The notes under the pieces are model-generated. The model was given only the letters and a program-made list of their open reading frames with translations. It was not told the DNA's origin and searched no databases. The position numbers and the translations under genes are program-made. Shown piece by piece: positions 22,229 to 48,523 of a DNA stretch of 48,523 nucleotides. The stretch is from a bacterium. Its GTDB lineage: Bacteria > Bacillota > Clostridia > Lachnospirales > Lachnospiraceae. The stretch covers positions 1 to 48,523 of the forward strand of contig JAMPCE010000001.1 of the NCBI GenBank assembly GCA_023666335.1, read 5' to 3'. How positions within the stretch are numbered: position 1 is the stretch's first letter; every line of letters begins with the position of its first letter.

Positions 22229-22428
22229 GCGAAACGCATTTATGGTTAATGATATTGTACAAATAGTATAATCAACGCAGACGCGCTTGCGCTCCATTCC
22301 GAACGTAGTGGTACTAGACTCGGGAGTTGCCGTGCAACTCCAAACCTCGTCAAGTACCAACGTTCTGCAAGGGTCTGCTTATGATTATACTATTTGCACA
22401 ATTATTTCAGCGCTTTGAAGCGTTTCGC
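22229..22428 (+). ncRNA. branched structured element A, copy 1
   Basis: A 200-base stretch that folds on itself. Outer stem GCGAAACGC (22229-22237) with GCGTTTCGC (22420-22428); long stem AAATAGTATAATCA (22261-22274) with TGATTATACTATTT (22381-22394), all paired; GCAGAC with GTCTGC; a GCG-CTTG-CGC hairpin; GAACGT with ACGTTC; TGGTACT with AGTACCA; and an apical GGAGTTGC/GCAACTCC hairpin. Copy 2 at 28356 keeps the fold with compensatory changes. It fills the gap between the S4 gene and the M16 protease. Strand is assigned by the neighbouring genes and is not certain. Confidence 0.7.
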
Positions 22429-28355: not shown

Positions 28356-28560
28356 TTGCGAAACGCCTTTATTGATTGTTGAAATTTTGTAAATAGCATA
28401 ACCAACGCAGACGCGCTTGCGCTCCGTTCCGAGCGTAACAGACGCTAAACTCGGGAGTTGTAATGCAACTCCAAACCTCGTTAAGCGCTGACGCTCTTCA
28501 AGGGTCTGCTTATGGTTGTGTTATTTGCAAAATCAGCAAACGTTGAGATGCGTTTCGCAA
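28356..28560 (+). ncRNA. branched structured element A, copy 2
   Basis: The second copy of the 200-base element. Outer stem TTGCGAAACGC (28356-28366) with GCGTTTCGCAA (28550-28560); long stem AAATAGCATAACCA with TGGTTGTGTTATTT, fully paired including two G-U pairs; GCAGAC/GTCTGC; the same GCG-CTTG-CGC hairpin; GAGCGT with ACGCTC; CAG with CTG and CGCT with AGCG; and apical GGAGTTG/CAACTCC. It fills the gap between recO and the lipoprotein gene. Confidence 0.7.
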
Positions 28561-28594: not shown

Positions 28595-29230
28595 ATGCGG
28601 AAGCTTGTGACTGTACTCATACTGCCGATCATGATTCTGGGACTGACTTGCTGCGGGCAGGAGGAAGCGCCGGAGATTTCCTCTCTCTCTTTCAACAAAG
28701 CGGGGGAGATCACGCATCGTATCGTGGGAAAGACCGATCAGAATTATTATCAGATCGAGACAGCTGATCTGGAAAACTTTGCGGCGTCGCGCGTGGAGGA
28801 ATACTGCGCGGGCGGCAGAGAGGGAAGCGTCGTCCTCAATGCTGTGGAGGAGAAAGGCGGCAGCATCATCATGGATTTCGGCTATGTCTCAGCGGAAGAT
28901 TACAGTGGGTTTAACAACAGAATGTTGTATATTGGAACTTTGGAGAACGCGGCGGCGGACGGGTACGAACTGGAGGCGGTTCCTTTTGTTTCAATGGACG
29001 GTCAGGCGGTAGAGATCGGTTTTATGGAAGAGCAGGAGAAAAAGAATCTCGTCGTTCTGGAGACAAAGAGCGGGGAGGAGATCCTGGTCAATCTGCCGGG
29101 GAAGACGCTCTACACGAACCAGAGCGCGCACAGCGGGCAGGAAGTGACGTTCGTGGGGAAAAAGAGCGTGAAGATCAGCAATCAGGACGAGGAGGGGGCG
29201 CGTGCGCTCTCTTACATCATATATGAATGA
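28595..29230 (+). CDS. lipoprotein of unknown function
   Basis: A 211-aa lipoprotein: signal sequence MRKLVTVLILPIMILGLTCC with the lipidated cysteine at about residue 20, then a soluble domain of mainly beta prediction (MDFGYVSAEDYSGFNNRMLY near residue 95; GKTLYTNQSAHSGQEVTFVG near 165). Two internal cysteines are absent apart from EEYCAGG. No recognised family. GAAAGG lies six bases before the ATG. Upstream is element A copy 2, downstream the hairpin leader of glyS. Confidence 0.7.
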   Translation: MRKLVTVLILPIMILGLTCCGQEEAPEISSLSFNKAGEITHRIVGKTDQNYYQIETADLENFAASRVEEYCAGGREGSVVLNAVEEKGGSIIMDFGYVSAEDYSGFNNRMLYIGTLENAAADGYELEAVPFVSMDGQAVEIGFMEEQEKKNLVVLETKSGEEILVNLPGKTLYTNQSAHSGQEVTFVGKKSVKISNQDEEGARALSYIIYE

Positions 29231-29255
29231 CAATAGTTTGCCATGGCGGAGGATA

Positions 29256-29386
29256 GATTGAAAAATCATGCTGATGCACTGATTTTTCAATCACGAGTTT
29301 GTGCCAAAGTCACAAACTCGGAATCGCAGTCGAGAATCTGATATTCTCGACGCGTGTCATCGCAATAAATTGCTCTGACAAGGAGG
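29256..29386 (+). promoter_or_regulatory. structured leader element B, copy 1 (glyS)
   Basis: Four hairpins in a row ending at the ribosome site. H1 29256-29292: GATTGAAAAATCA with TGATTTTTCAATC, extended by TGC-TGAT-GCA with one bulged C. H2 29294-29320: CGAGTTTGTG with CACAAACTCG. H3 29325-29354: CGC-A-GTCGAGAAT, loop CTGAT, ATTCTCGAC-GCG. H4 29355-29380: TGTCA with TGACA, adjoining AGGAGG at 29381-29386. It is not a T-box. Copy 2 precedes alaS. Confidence 0.72.
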
Positions 29387-29391
29387 AAAAT

Positions 29392-30780
29392 ATGGAAAAA
29401 ACAATGGAGAAAATCGTAGCGTTGTCTAAGGCGAGGGGGTTTGTTTACCCCGGTTCCGAGATTTACGGGGGGCTGGCGAACACTTGGGATTTTGGAAATC
29501 TCGGCGTAGAACTGAAAAATAACATCAAAAAGGCGTGGTGGCAGAAGTTTGTCATGGAAAGCCCCTACAATGTCGGCGTGGACTGCGCGATCCTCATGAA
29601 TCCGCAGACCTGGGTGGCGAGCGGGCATCTGGGCAGCTTTTCCGATCCGCTGATGGACTGTAAGGAGTGCCACGAGCGTTTCCGCGCGGACAAGATCATT
29701 GAGGACTATGTGGCGGAAAAGGGCATGACGCTCGAATCTTCCGTGGATGGCTGGAGCCAGCAGCAGATGAAGGATTTTGTCGAAGAACATAACATTCCCT
29801 GCCCGACCTGCGGCAAACATAATTTTACCGATATCCGGCAGTTCAACCTGATGTTCAAGACCTTTCAGGGCGTGACGGAGGACGCGAAGAATACGGTGTA
29901 TCTGCGCCCCGAGACCGCGCAGGGCATCTTTGTGAATTTCAAGAACGTGCAGCGGACTTCCCGCAAGAAGATTCCCTTTGGCATCTGTCAGGTGGGAAAA
30001 TCCTTCCGCAACGAGATCACGCCCGGAAACTTTATCTTCCGCGTGCGGGAGTTTGAGCAGATGGAGATGGAATTTTTCTGCGAGCCGGACACCGATCTGG
30101 AATGGTTCGCTTACTGGAAGAAATACTGTATCGACTTCCTTAAGAGCCTCGGCATGAAGGAGGAGGAGATGCGGGTGCGCGACCACGATCCGGAGGAACT
30201 TTCTTTCTACTCTAAGGCGACGACGGATATCGAGTTCTTGTTCCCTTTCGGCTGGGGCGAGCTCTGGGGCATCGCTGACAGGACGGACTACGACCTGACG
30301 CAGCACCAGAATACTTCCGGCGAGGATCTGACTTACTTTGACGATACAAAGAATGAGAAATATATACCTTATGTGATCGAGCCTTCGCTCGGCGTGGAGC
30401 GGCTGTTCCTGGCGGTGCTCTGCGGCGCGTATGACGAGGAGGATTTGGGCGAGGGGGATATGCGCACCGTGCTGCATTTCCATCCCGCGCTTGCGCCTGT
30501 CAAGATCGGCGTGCTGCCCCTTTCCAAAAAACTGAATGAGGGCGCGGAGAAGATTTTTGCCCAGCTTTCGAAAAAGTATAACTGTGAGTTTGACGACAGG
30601 GGCAATATCGGCAAGCGTTACCGCCGTCAGGACGAGATCGGCACGCCGTTCTGCGTGACCTACGATTTTGATTCCGAGACGGACAACTGCGTGACCGTGC
30701 GCTTCCGCGACTCTATGGAGCAGGAGCGGGTGGCGATCGAGCAGCTTGACGCTTACTTTGCGGATAAGTTTATGTTCTAG
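29392..30780 (+). CDS. glyS: glycyl-tRNA synthetase, dimeric class II type
   Basis: A 462-aa alpha2-type glycyl-tRNA synthetase (the single-chain bacterial/archaeal/eukaryotic kind, not the alpha2beta2 form). Class II motif 2 is [25 protein letters not shown] (residues about 205-229, with FRNE), motif 3 is [10 protein letters not shown] near residue 328 and the anticodon-binding domain follows ([16 protein letters not shown] near 365). A cysteine pair CPTCG near residue 137 with CKEC near 90 may bind zinc. The frame is open from 29299, but AGGAGG at 29381-29386 places the start at 29392. The gene is named glyS or glyQS depending on convention. A hairpin leader adjoins its ribosome site. Confidence 0.93.
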
Positions 30781-30798
30781 GCGGGAACGAGGAAAGCA

Positions 30799-30928
30799 GA
30801 TTGAAAAATAAGTCTGATGACCTTATTTTTCAATCGTGAGTTTGTGTCGGAGCCACAAACTCAAAATCGCAGAGCAGAATTTGAAATTCTGCTCGCGTGT
30901 CTTCGCAAAAAACGCTCCGACAGGGAGG
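30799..30928 (+). promoter_or_regulatory. structured leader element B, copy 2 (alaS)
   Basis: The same four-hairpin order as upstream of glyS. H1 30799-30835: GATTGAAAAATAA with TTATTTTTCAATC, extended by GTC-TGAT-GAC with the same bulged C. H2 30837-30863: TGAGTTTGTG with CACAAACTCA. H3 30868-30897: CGC-A-GAGCAGAAT, loop TTGAA, ATTCTGCTC-GCG. H4 30898-30922: TGTC with GACA, adjoining GGGAGG at 30923-30928. Confidence 0.72.
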
Positions 30929-30933
30929 TACCA

Positions 30934-33591
30934 ATGAGACAATTTACTTCGGATGAGTTGAGAAAGACCTGGAAGCAGTTTTATATTGAACGCGGTCATG
31001 TGGATGTGGGGGCGGTTTCGCTGGTGTCTGACGGTTCTACGGGCGTTCTCTTTAACGTGGCAGGCATGCAGCCGTTAATGCCCTATCTTTTGGGGCGCAA
31101 GCACCCTTTGGGGACGAGGCTCTGTAACGTGCAGGGCTGTGTGCGCACGAACGATATCGACTCGGTGGGCGACAAGAGCCATGTGACCTTTTTTGAGATG
31201 ATGGGAAGCTGGAGTCTGGGAGATTATTTCAAGGAGGAGCGCTGCAAGTGGAGTTTTGAGCTGTTGACGCAGGTGTTCGGCTTTGATGCGGATCACCTGG
31301 CGGCGACCGTCTTTGCCGGGGACGAAAACGCGCCCAGGGACGAGGAGGGCGCACAGTACCGCATCGCTTCCGGTTTCAGGAAAGAAAATATCTATTACCT
31401 GCCGGCGGAAGATAACTGGTGGGGCTTGGAATACGGTCCCTGCGGCCCTGACAGCGAGATGTTCTATGTGGACGACCGTGCGGACTGCGGACCCGACTGC
31501 GGACCGGGATGCAGCTGCGGAAAGTACACGGAACTGGGAAACGACGTCTTCATGCAGTACGAGAAGCATCAGGACGGGAGCCTGACGCCGCTTGCGCAGA
31601 AAAACGTGGATACGGGATGGGGACTGGAGCGCATTCTGGCGTTCTTAAACGGGGCGAGAGACGTCTATCGGATCGACCTGTTTGCGCCGGTGATCGCCTA
31701 TATCGAGAAAGAATCGGGGACGAAATACGAGCAGGACGAAAAACTGACAAGATCTATGCGGATCCTCGCGGATCATATCCGCACGAGCGTCATGCTGATC
31801 GGGGATGAGGCAAGGCTCTTACCCTCCAATGTGGGGGCAGGCTATGTGCTGCGCCGCCTGATCCGCCGTGCGGTCAGACACGGAAAGACACTTGGTCTTG
31901 GCAAGGACCATATCGTAAAGGTGGCGGAACTCTTTATTGACGAGATCTATGCGGAGAGCTATCCCCGCCTGAAAGAAAACAAAGAATTTGTGCTCACGGA
32001 GTTACAGAGGGAGATCGAGCGCTTTGAGGGGACGCTGGAAAACGGCATGAAAGAATTCCGAAAGATCCTCGAAGCGAAGAAAAAGGAAAACTCCGGCGGG
32101 ATCGACGGCAGATCAGCCTTTTACCTGTATGATACCTTTGGCTTCCCCATCGAACTGACTGTGGAAATGGCGCAGGAAGAGGGGCTTAACGTCGATGAAG
32201 AGGGCTTCGCAAAGGCGATGGAGGAGCAGAAGCAGAAAGCGCGGGAGAACCAGAATTTCGAGGCGAAGCTTTCCGAGGGGAATGCGGCGCTTTACGAGAG
32301 CCTGGACGCTTCCGTTGGCAGCACATTCGTTGGGTATGAGAGCCTGACAGCGGAGAGTCAGATCTTTGCCATCACGGACGGAGCTGCGTGGAAGAATGTT
32401 CTGAACGAGGGAGAAGAGGGAACGATCATTGCGGAAAAGACGCCGTTTTATGCGACGATGGGCGGTCAGTGTGCTGACACGGGTGTCATTTCCTGTGGCG
32501 GGAGCACGTTTGTCGTGGAAGATACCGTCAAACTCCCCGGAAACCGGATCGGGCATGTCGGCAAAGTGACAAAGGGAAGCATCAAGACCGGAGATACGGC
32601 GCTTTTGGAAGTCGGGGCAGCAAGACGCGGCGATACCTGTAAAAACCACAGCGCGACCCATCTTCTGCAAAAGGCGCTGCGCATCGTTTTGGGCGATCAT
32701 GTGGAGCAGGCGGGATCCTTTGTGAGCGAAGACAGGCTCCGCTTTGATTTCAGCCATTCTTGCGCGATGACGAAAGAGGAGCTGGAAAAGACCGAACGGA
32801 TCGTCAATGAGCAGATCGGGCTTTCCCTGCCGGTGGTGACGGAGGAGATGTCTTTAGAAGAGGCGAAAAAGACAGGGGCTATGGCGCTGTTCGGGGAAAA
32901 GTACGGCGAGACGGTGCGCGTGGTCAAAATGGGGGATTTTTCCACAGAACTCTGCGGCGGCACCCATGTGGCAAATACAGGAGAAGTGCGCCTGTTCAAG
33001 ATCGTATCGGAGAGCGGCGTAGCTGCCGGCGTGCGGAGGATCGAGGCGCTGACCGGAAACGGCGTGCTGGCATATTATGCAAAAGTGGAGCAGGAACTTA
33101 CGGAGGCGGCAGCGATCGTAAAGACGGCTCCGGCGGAACTGGTTTCCCGACTTTCCCATCTGATGGCGGAACTGAAAGCCCTGCAGAGCGAGAACGACTC
33201 CTTAAAGAGCAAGGCGGCGAAAGACGCGCTGGGCGATGTGACCGATCAGGTGCAGGAAGTCAAGGGCGTGAAGCTCCTTGCAGCCAAAGTGTCGGGCGTC
33301 GATATGAACGGTCTGCGCGAGTTGGGCGACCAGCTGAAAGAAAAGATCGCCGACGGCGTGGTGGTGCTGCTTTCCGAGAAAGAGGGCAAGGTGAACCTGA
33401 TTGCGATGGCTGCGGACGGCGCGATCCATAAGGGCGCGCATGCGGGCAATCTCATCAAAGGGATCGCGGCTCTTGTTGGCGGCGGCGGAGGCGGCAGACC
33501 GAACATGGCGCAGGCGGGCGGTAAAAACCCTGCGGGCATGGACGAGGCGGTCGCAGCGTGTGCGAAAGTGCTGGCGGAGCAGTTGAAATAA
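30934..33591 (+). CDS. alaS: alanyl-tRNA synthetase
   Basis: An 885-aa alanyl-tRNA synthetase. Catalytic class II core at residues 1-240 (FYIERGHVDVGAVSLV; motif 2-like GCVRTNDIDSVG with HVTFFEMMGSWSLGDYFKEE), tRNA-recognition helices, then the editing domain with zinc-binding NHSATHLLQ (about residue 570) and CGGTHVANTGE (about 672), and a C-terminal C-Ala domain with the glycine run GGGGGGRPNMAQAGG near 860. A Cys-rich insert DCGPDCGPGCSCG near residue 190 replaces the usual stretch and may bind metal. The frame extends upstream to 30817, but GGGAGG at 30923-30928 fixes the ATG at 30934. Confidence 0.94.
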   Translation: MRQFTSDELRKTWKQFYIERGHVDVGAVSLVSDGSTGVLFNVAGMQPLMPYLLGRKHPLGTRLCNVQGCVRTNDIDSVGDKSHVTFFEMMGSWSLGDYFKEERCKWSFELLTQVFGFDADHLAATVFAGDENAPRDEEGAQYRIASGFRKENIYYLPAEDNWWGLEYGPCGPDSEMFYVDDRADCGPDCGPGCSCGKYTELGNDVFMQYEKHQDGSLTPLAQKNVDTGWGLERILAFLNGARDVYRIDLFAPVIAYIEKESGTKYEQDEKLTRSMRILADHIRTSVMLIGDEARLLPSNVGAGYVLRRLIRRAVRHGKTLGLGKDHIVKVAELFIDEIYAESYPRLKENKEFVLTELQREIERFEGTLENGMKEFRKILEAKKKENSGGIDGRSAFYLYDTFGFPIELTVEMAQEEGLNVDEEGFAKAMEEQKQKARENQNFEAKLSEGNAALYESLDASVGSTFVGYESLTAESQIFAITDGAAWKNVLNEGEEGTIIAEKTPFYATMGGQCADTGVISCGGSTFVVEDTVKLPGNRIGHVGKVTKGSIKTGDTALLEVGAARRGDTCKNHSATHLLQKALRIVLGDHVEQAGSFVSEDRLRFDFSHSCAMTKEELEKTERIVNEQIGLSLPVVTEEMSLEEAKKTGAMALFGEKYGETVRVVKMGDFSTELCGGTHVANTGEVRLFKIVSESGVAAGVRRIEALTGNGVLAYYAKVEQELTEAAAIVKTAPAELVSRLSHLMAELKALQSENDSLKSKAAKDALGDVTDQVQEVKGVKLLAAKVSGVDMNGLRELGDQLKEKIADGVVVLLSEKEGKVNLIAMAADGAIHKGAHAGNLIKGIAALVGGGGGGRPNMAQAGGKNPAGMDEAVAACAKVLAEQLK

Positions 33592-46515: not shown

Positions 46516-48523
46516 CAGACGGCGTTGACAACTCGGGCGAGACGGGGAAAACCGAAGAAGATGAGCCGTCGAAGGAAAGCGAAAATGGCGGGAGCGGTTC
46601 GTCGGATGCGGTTGATGACGCAGCAGAGGATAACGATGCGTCGGAAGAGAACGATGATATTGATGAGGAAAACAATGGGTCAGATGGGATAGAATCGGAC
46701 GCGGAGGACGATGTAGACGGAGAAGAGCAGGAAGAATCGGAAGATACGAATGCGGTTCAGCCGCTTATGGAAACCGGAACAGCCGCCGCAGAAACAGATT
46801 TTACATATACGACAGAGGATTCCAAAGCGACCATTACAAAATATAACGGAAGCGAGACGGAACTGATCATACCGGATACGCTGGACGGGTGTGAAGTCGT
46901 GGCGATCGGTAAGGAGGCGTTTAAGGGAAACGCGCTGGTAAGTGTCGTGATACCGGATACGGTGACGGAGATCGGGCAATCGGCGTTTAGTGAATGCAGC
47001 GCTTTGACAACGGTAAAGATGCCGGATGGCGTGACAGAAATAAAGAGCAGCGCGTTTTTCAAATGTAAAATGTTGACAACGATCGATCTGCCGAAGAATT
47101 TGAAACGCATGGAGGGTCATGCGTTTGGCAGCTGCGAGGCATTAGAAGAACTGGTAATACCGAAAACGCTCGAATATGCGTCAAGCGCATCGGGAACGGC
47201 AGTATTTGAGAACTGCGGACTGACGACAGTTACCGTGGAGGAGGGTCTGACAAAGCTGCCGGAGGCATTGTTCCGTAAGGCGGAAAAACTGACAAGCGTA
47301 ACATTGCCGGATACGGTGACGGAGATCGGAAAATCGGCGTTTAGTGACTGTGCCGCGCTGGAAGAAATCCGGCTGCCGGACCAGATCACGTTAATTCAGG
47401 AGACCGCTTTTTTCCGATGTGTGAATCTGGCAAAGATCAATCTGCCGAAAAACCTGAACAAGATAGAGGGCGGCGCATTCCAAAGCTGTACGGCTCTGCG
47501 TACGCTGGAAATACCGAAGAGCCTGGAAGACGCGGCGAAAGCGACCACAACAGCCGTGTTTGATCATTGTGGTCTGGAAACTGTTACATTTGAAGAGGGA
47601 TCGACGAAAGTGCCGGAAGCCCTGTTCAGAAAAGCAGAAAATTTAAAGAATGTGGTGCTTGCGGATACGATCACGGAGATCGAAGAATCGGCGTTTTATG
47701 GCTGTACCGCTCTTCCGGCGCTTACCCTGCCGGACAGTGTGACGGCAATCGGCAGCACGGCATTTGCAAATTGCAGCGTTTTGGCGGAGATTCATCTGTC
47801 AAAAAGCCTGCTCAGTATCGGCGACGGCGCGTTTATGGGCTGTACGGCGTTAAAAGAACTGGAAGTGCCTAAGAGTCTGAAAGAAGTAGTGAATTACAAT
47901 AGATATGATGTGTTCCAAAACTGCGGTCTGGAAACGGTCACGTTTGAGGACGGCGCAACGCGGGTCGCTGACTATTTATTTCGGAATGCGGTAAATTTGA
48001 AAAGTGTGACTCTTCCGCAGACAGTTACGGAGATTGGACAATCTGCGTTTCGGGGGTGCACTGATCTGTCGGCAATCGCTCTGCCCGACGCTGTCACTGT
48101 GATCATGGCGGATGCGTTTTATGGTTGTACCGGTTTGGCGCAGACCAATCTGCCCAAGAGTCTGCTCAAGATAGAGGGCGGCGCATTCAACAACTGTACA
48201 TCCTTGACAGAGATCGCGGTTCCCATGAGTTTAGAGGAAGTCGGCGGTGCGGTTTTCTACGGCAGCGGTCTTACGACGGTGTCCTTTGACGACGGCACGG
48301 TCAAAGTGTTGGACGCGCTGTTTCAGGGGTGCAGTTATCTGAATTCTGTCACAATGCCGGATACGGTGACGGAGATCGGAGCCGGTGCATTCAAGGACTG
48401 TGTCGAGCTGCCGCAGATCAGGATTCCGGGCGAAGTGACGGCAATCGGCGATTCGGCGTTTGAGAATTGTGCAAAACTTGCCGCCGTTGTGATGCCCGAC
48501 AGCGTTACAACGGTCGGCAGTAC
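46491..48523 (+). CDS. BspA-like leucine-rich-repeat surface protein, main part (runs off the window)
   Basis: An open frame from the G tract to the window end, more than 675 codons, with no good initiator at its beginning, so it is the body of the same gene. It starts with an acidic Glu/Asp/Ser linker (to about 46750), then a small beta domain and about 25 BspA-type repeats (LRR_5 pattern: LTTVTLPDTVTEIGKSAFSDC). The units form a higher-order repeat of about 350 bases: four blocks begin with VF..CGL-type units near 47200, 47550, 47905 and 48248. BspA-type proteins are exported and bind host or matrix proteins or other bacteria. The C-terminal anchor is outside the window. Confidence 0.85.

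Follow-up and report, generated by a model that had tools for sequence, protein, structure and literature searches.

Hairpin-chain leaders of glyS and alaS in a Lachnospiraceae genome: most likely a mobile element aimed at the translation-start region

In a 48,523 nt stretch of a Lachnospiraceae genome (contig JAMPCE010000001.1 of assembly GCA_023666335.1; this whole stretch is called the window below), the neighboring genes glyS and alaS are each preceded by a chain of four hairpins that runs up to the Shine–Dalgarno (SD) motif, raising the question of what two matching leaders, studied here on the + strand, are doing at these positions. The original prediction took them for a cis-regulatory RNA that controls translation of the class II synthetases for the two smallest amino acids. 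The analysis described here points most strongly to a mobile element aimed at the translation-start region rather than to a two-enzyme switch, standing before unrelated genes in many gut bacteria.

Two copies of a four-hairpin unit

The two leaders are copies of one unit (79% identical in BLAST), with the hairpins H1 to H4 in the same order and with GGAGG and the start codon following (Table 1). The paired changes on which the original prediction had been built are all present in the sequence: TCA/TGA to TAA/TTA in H1, TGC/GCA to GTC/GAC at the H1 tip with the TGAT loop and the bulged C unchanged, C-G to T-A in H2, and GTCG/CGAC to GAGC/GCTC in H3. Each copy is more stable than its dinucleotide shuffles (z = −7.3 and −6.6, with none of 200 shuffles equal). 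In both leaders a second SD-like motif lies immediately 5′ of H1.

Table 1. Positions in the window of the two leaders, their hairpins and motifs, and the genes that follow them
Feature	Position	Strand	Basis and remarks
Left SD-like GGAGG, glyS copy	29248–29252	+	Sequence; separated from the element by 3 nt
Element copy 1 (glyS leader), 124 nt, then SD	29256–29379	+	Covariance model R1, 149.8 bits
H1 of glyS copy, 16 pairs, TGAT loop, bulged C	29256–29292	+	Sequence, folding
H2 of glyS copy	29294–29320	+	Folding; loop 29304–29310 is one pseudoknot side
H3 of glyS copy	29325–29354	+	Sequence, folding
H4 of glyS copy	29356–29379	+	Folding, covariation; the H2 loop can pair with its 3′ strand instead
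Right SD GGAGG of glyS	29382–29386	+	Sequence; 5 nt before the ATG at 29392
glyS (glycyl-tRNA synthetase)	29392–30777	+	Pfam PF00587, PF03129
Left SD-like GAGGA, alaS copy	30789–30793	+	Sequence
Element copy 2 (alaS leader)	30799–30921	+	Covariance model R1, 142.3 bits
Pseudoknot strand 1 of alaS copy, GTCGGAGC (H2 stem end and loop)	30846–30853	+	Sequence, folding
Pseudoknot strand 2 of alaS copy, GCTCCGAC (also the H4 3′ strand)	30914–30921	+	Exact complement of 30846–30853
Right SD GGAGG of alaS	30924–30928	+	Sequence; 5 nt before the ATG at 30934
alaS (alanyl-tRNA synthetase)	30934–33588	+	Pfam PF01411

H4 had been described as a hairpin ending directly at the SD. That pairing exists, but its 3′ strand has a second partner: in the minimum-energy fold of the alaS copy this strand pairs with the H2 loop, forming a pseudoknot. 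As H4 and the pseudoknot use the same 3′ strand, the two pairings are mutually exclusive, and the last strand of the unit thus has two alternative partners. The pseudoknot side is weak in the glyS copy, where the H2 loop reads CCAAAGT.

T-boxes are found in the 5′ leaders of synthetase genes in Firmicutes, and the absence of a T-box core from both leaders was correctly noted at the outset: nothing in the window reaches the gathering threshold of any Rfam family, and the T-box model (RF00230) has no match at E ≤ 5 in 29200–30960. Other Rfam families were rejected as the identity of the leaders, as none gave a sense-strand match over threshold. There is, however, a likeness to TD-2 RNA (RF03162), which was reportedly described from Treponema denticola in a 2017 survey. 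The TD-2 model matches, over its whole length, the antisense strand of H3-H2-H1 in the glyS/alaS subfamily, and the H2 stem GAGUUU/AAACUC and the H1 segments UGAAAA/UUUUCA are the same in both. The best matches score 33–44 bits (top 43.7) against a gathering cut-off of 48.7, which none of 10 genomes exceeds; they run antisense to the downstream gene, the sense-strand matches being weaker (23.4 and 21.4 bits), and weak matches (E ≤ 10) also occur in 7 of 14 control genomes. A search of 12 loci, 11 of which had been chosen for other subfamilies, yielded no match to the model at E ≤ 0.05. TD-2 differs further in being typed as a small RNA, and its model has no part for H4 or the SD. By the gathering cut-off the leaders do not belong to TD-2; because the H1 and H2 sequences are so alike, a common origin is plausible.

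Distribution, position and downstream genes of the copies

BLAST and a covariance model built from eight copies (R1) identified 18 clear copies in the window's own 3.1 Mb genome, with scores of 49.5 to 154 bits. At least 17 of 24 same-genus genomes have matches at E ≤ 0.01, with 1 to 48 per genome among the matches listed and with three of the 17 being weak (one or two matches at E above 1e-8); seven genomes have none. Among the matches listed for R1, 1 of 16 genomes of other families has any. Surveys with a second model (R2) found copies in at least 10 of the 295 genomes surveyed in the order (five belong to a single other family; 11 candidates scored per genome) and in at least 1 of 398 genomes of the phylum, this being the window's own (8 candidates scored per genome). 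Deeper scoring, with 150 candidates per genome, gave 46, 35, 11 and 3 copies in four genomes, the 46 being those of genome G310. A scan of named genomes with H1 alone returned at least 117 stretches, of which 80 were listed as loci; the titles among the matches listed are mostly Lachnospiraceae or Acetatifactor, and the remainder name other or unspecified bacteria, the majority from this phylum. Viral contigs contained no match to the H1 pattern, and phages and plasmids none to the glyS copy. Match lengths are mostly 103–160 nt. The family is best described as one of Lachnospiraceae-type genomes that also reaches one further family of the order. Searches of the open-licence full-text literature turned up no account of an element like this.

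The position of the copies was read from 103 copies scoring more than 70 bits, from 16 genomes, with the downstream sequence inspected in the element's own direction. A start codon lies 5–14 nt past the model end in 91 of the 103, and at exactly 8 nt in 63, confirming that the copies stand at gene starts in the sense direction. Copies without relation to gene starts, or in both orientations, which the original prediction had named as the mark of a mobile palindromic repeat, are therefore not what was found, although mobility is still indicated by other evidence (below). An SD-like motif is present within 13 nt to the left of H1 in 97 of the 103 copies, compared with 23% of 1030 control windows located 60–400 nt further upstream (94 copies and 19% of control windows with a stricter motif set). 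On the right, 42 of the 58 copies with GGAGG have it 5 nt from the start codon, a spacing shared by 43 of 297 other genes at these loci; left and right spacings are not correlated. The set found with H1 only comprises, among the matches listed, 81 members, four of them at contig ends; an SD and an open reading frame of at least 60 aa follow in 66 of the remaining 77, and several of the other 11, which fail this filter, show an SD and ATG by eye.

The genes identified behind copies in this genome are glyS, alaS, tyrS, argJ, mrpF, parB and an ABC ATPase, together with genes for a metalloenzyme-superfamily protein (which we take, by recognition, to be deoB), a short-chain dehydrogenase, a GT52 family member, a POR-domain protein, an Fe-S protein and a DUF1385 protein; three more have no Pfam match at the limits used, one match is sub-threshold, and one gene is LacI-like by eye. 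Pfam analysis of these downstream genes revealed no common function. Only three of the 18 copies precede synthetase genes (glyS, alaS and tyrS) and 15 precede others, one of which (the LacI-like gene) was named by eye, so the expectation that matches would sit before synthetase genes did not hold in this genome. The tyrS copy sits between a genuine T-box (RF00230, 99.2 bits, locus L132) and the tyrS start codon; T-box and element thus occur side by side at tyrS, in contrast to the leaders of glyS and alaS. At another locus (L351 of genome G205, 1216–1467), a T-box-like leader scoring 85.5 bits against a cut-off of 93 lies just 5′ of a copy before a valS-like gene (named by eye).

Two further kinds of repeat were noted in the window. 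A second, MITE-like family of about 160 nt occupies 22243–22402 and 28373–28533 (82–83% alike), the copy at 22243–22402 having 21-nt inverted repeats at 22254–22274 and 22382–22402 (ATTGTACAAATAGTATAATCA / TGATTATACTATTTGCACAAT). Five direct repeats of about 98 nt, spaced by 342–354 nt, lie at 46944–48445 and probably encode a repeat-domain protein.

Empty sites, flanking repeats and partial copies

Inspection by eye of 190 nt each from the glyS leaders of 18 other genomes showed that the element is absent from all of them, and it is equally absent from the alaS leaders of G002 and G015. The alaS leader of G006 (L177) carries a partial, different relative, with other H1 and H2 sequences and no recognizable H3 or H4. 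As a separate observation on this gene, in G000, G002 and G015 the first 289 residues encoded by the alaS beside glyS show only about 37% identity to the best alaS match in each of the other same-genus genomes searched; several of those best matches adjoin glyS too, a pattern as if a foreign alaS had replaced the resident one in situ. At seven other sites, being those whose orthologous loci were returned by the search, an H1-like motif within 250 nt is absent from 29 of 30 orthologue leaders, a count that diverged copies would escape; one of the 29, L206 (parB of G002), looks by eye like a 3′-only remnant. The copy at the deoB-like site has GGAGGCAAAAGATG as its right flank, as have three orthologues (L205, L217 and L222), and its left flank carries a second GGGAGGC. 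L222, the sole leader with an H1-like motif within 250 nt, aligns across the joint without an element-sized gap. Both general hallmarks of a small interspersed mobile repeat, many copies and presence or absence at orthologous sites, are found, the comparison being one between species.

The left and right flanks of the copies are alike in the copy-rich genomes G310 and G077, with AATGGRGATTA on both sides in G310. For G310 the match within copies exceeds that between copies (9.05 against 7.45; 22 copies, with none of 3000 swaps as good), and the same comparison gave p = 0.09–0.14 for G077. Of 161 copies compared, 57 have a best left/right match that scores ≥6, and in 45 of these the match stops 2 nt short of the start codon. 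Shifting the register of the flanking repeats by one base abolished the signal. A general target-site duplication was first suggested by the 12-nt flanking repeat of L056; it is supported in G310 and weakly so elsewhere, with 34 of 2000 within-genome swaps and 59 of 2000 spacer-only swaps doing as well. Three G310 loci (L396, L397 and L398) have flanks that are alike and form a larger inverted-repeat-like unit, with no ORF of ≥50 aa right downstream.

The left flank of some copies consists of another copy's 3′ end, and L136 is a tandem pair. A 14-letter pattern from the 3′ end occurs at 90 places in G310 and G077, compared with none for the reversed pattern; 44 of the 90 form the end of a full-length match and 46 do not. 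An open frame follows 45 of the 50 distinct 3′ ends that were read, in a set for which 20 copies had been chosen as partial. Among them are copies that have lost internal sequence but retain H1 and the 3′ end (one deletion junction is common to L473 and L474), 5′-truncated copies and 3′-only copies. With the same motif set and window, a left SD-like motif was found in none of 20 3′-only copies, compared with 95 of 103 full copies, so the left SD could be either the target's or the element's own. Together, the lineage-specific presence, the high-copy genomes and the nested and partial copies indicate mobility.

Pairing and the competing explanations

In a set of 128 non-redundant copies, the strand immediately 5′ of the SD is the partner of the H2 loop. 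The mean duplex energy of this pseudoknot is −12.7 kcal/mol, against −9.1 (sd 0.25) when partners are swapped between copies, a control that removes kinship among copies only in part. An earlier scoring of 87 distinct loop/strand combinations, from which 6 of 103 copies without a clean H2 had been left out, gave 18.0 against 14.8 (sd 0.31) for swapped partners and 11.4 for scrambled loops. Pairing is kept in very unlike sequences, such as TCTGGGCGA/TCGCTCAGA and CCGGAGCGT/ACGCTCCGG. H4 covaries as well in a hairpin-based test (−6.78 against about −5.5, sd 0.12–0.15), whereas a cruder test with fixed segments detected no H4 covariation (−8.4 against −8.5). The covariation proposed from two copies thus persists in the larger set, with the pseudoknot far above its swapped controls and H4 positive in the hairpin-based test.

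Constraint on the structure, as originally proposed, stands, but compensatory changes of this kind could also arise by quasi-palindrome correction of DNA, with no selection acting on the RNA. G-U pairs are scarce in H1 (0.8%) and commoner in the pseudoknot (6.0%), both being shares without a matched control, and the low H1 share may reflect hairpins that are kept perfect as DNA. Among stem changes seen in single copies, 13 G-U and 59 compensated changes kept the pairing and 36 broke it, with about 29 kept under a simple expectation; this excess also fits selection on RNA at individual loci.

We consider it probable that both leaders belong to a small non-autonomous mobile element, one that would target ribosome-binding sites for insertion and then rebuild them. 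Beneath this lie observations: the copy family, its position and lineage-specific presence, the pairing in H1–H3, the pseudoknot and H4, and the partial copies that retain a 3′ end with its SD. An enzyme supplied in trans would actively direct the element to the SD region, where it would land in sense orientation in the gap that separates SD and start codon, and insertion would leave an SD-like motif on either side. Its 3′ end would provide an SD of its own at a near-fixed 5 nt from the start codon; because a working SD is brought along, the host gene would still be translated and the insertion tolerated. The hairpins and the pseudoknot would serve the mobile stage, and any effect on translation would be mild and not ligand-specific. 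Later deletions would strip the 5′ part to give 3′-only remnants, which would be kept because the 3′ end had become the gene's SD. No transposase, reverse transcriptase or autonomous copy was found, the enzyme search being for Y1_Tnp (PF01797) only.

Short, multi-copy, palindromic, non-coding intergenic repeats are familiar in bacteria as REP, NEMIS/Correia and bcr. Passages of one paper describe BOX, RUP and SPRITE in the same terms (PMC3049150). The element resembles all of these in its small size and palindromy and differs in being nearly always in one orientation, placed exactly in the SD-to-start gap, and in providing the SD; targeting of this gap is not mentioned in the passages of that paper or of a review of MITEs (PMC10969869). 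Passages of the same review describe Rickettsia palindromic elements as mobile palindromes strictly tied to reading frames (PMC10969869), but many of those lie in frame within coding sequences, unlike the present element, which lies before the start codon. It differs from MITEs in having no terminal inverted repeats (complementarity of the first and last 25 nt, 3.8 against 4.2 for shuffled sequences; 128 copies).

Alternatively, mobility could have spread a true cis-regulatory RNA that adopts either H4 or the H2-loop pseudoknot beside the SD, the two states being exclusive, and that now tunes many genes as a regulon. That both alternative pairings covary, that placement at the SD is exact and that pairing is retained in many single-copy changes are in keeping with this reading, but the target genes share no function, the copies are absent in other species, and we judge it unlikely. 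Folding leans both ways: removing the element makes the right SD slightly more accessible (unpaired 0.48, against 0.39 with the element in place; p = 0.003, 89 copies), but with a shuffled element it is no more accessible (0.36 against 0.39, p = 0.2), and this second comparison does not support SD sequestration. An upstream start codon is a further candidate feature. NTG occupies element positions 3–5 in 114 of 128 copies, most commonly 5 nt after the left GGAGG, a count that is partly a selection effect, as the H1 scan pattern fixed T4 and G5; position 2 also avoids C. A conserved upstream start codon is possible on this biased count, but a conserved upstream peptide was rejected, as the stops of 121 possible upstream ORFs fall anywhere (24 in H1, 11 in H2, 43 in H3, 15 in H4/SD and 23 past the gene start, with none before an in-frame fusion in 5).

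A bacterial SINE-like element, in which an RNA ending in the SD is copied into DNA primed by the complement of another gene's SD, is improbable in our estimate. Such a route would account for the sense orientation, the exact placement at ribosome-binding sites, the flanking of full copies by an SD left and right, the intact 3′ ends alongside many 5′-truncated copies, and the conserved RNA pseudoknot.

We give very little weight to the movement of a REP-like palindrome by a Y1 (TnpA/RAYT) transposase acting on single-stranded hairpins. The near-perfect palindromes with few G-U pairs in H1, the fixed side of a short target motif and the lack of terminal inverted repeats would suit it, but PF01797, found in 8 of 23 genomes, is absent from G310 with its 46 copies, from G000 and from five other copy-rich genomes (G002, G006, G009, G014 and G020), and is present in G022, a genome without copies. 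Y1_Tnp as modeled by Pfam is accordingly an unlikely mobilizer, a diverged HUH enzyme being still conceivable, and the same absence separates the element from REP/RAYT or IS200/IS605-like systems. Regulation of class II synthetases for small amino acids is hardly credible, since, despite the two neighboring synthetase genes and tyrS with copies here, it is refuted as a general statement by the 15 of 18 copies before other genes (three without a Pfam match), the empty glyS and alaS leaders of other species and the T-box upstream of the tyrS copy.

If the leaders are indeed copies of a mobile element, then it is one that targets the translation start site itself and repairs its own disruption, and ribosome-binding sites would have been rewritten genome-wide, as the 90 matches to one 3′ end in two genomes would attest. 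The copies would constitute a natural experiment on leader structure and translation, and would point to Rfam TD-2 as a possible relative, read from the opposite strand. They would also serve as a warning that leader RNAs beside functionally linked genes can be mobile repeats.
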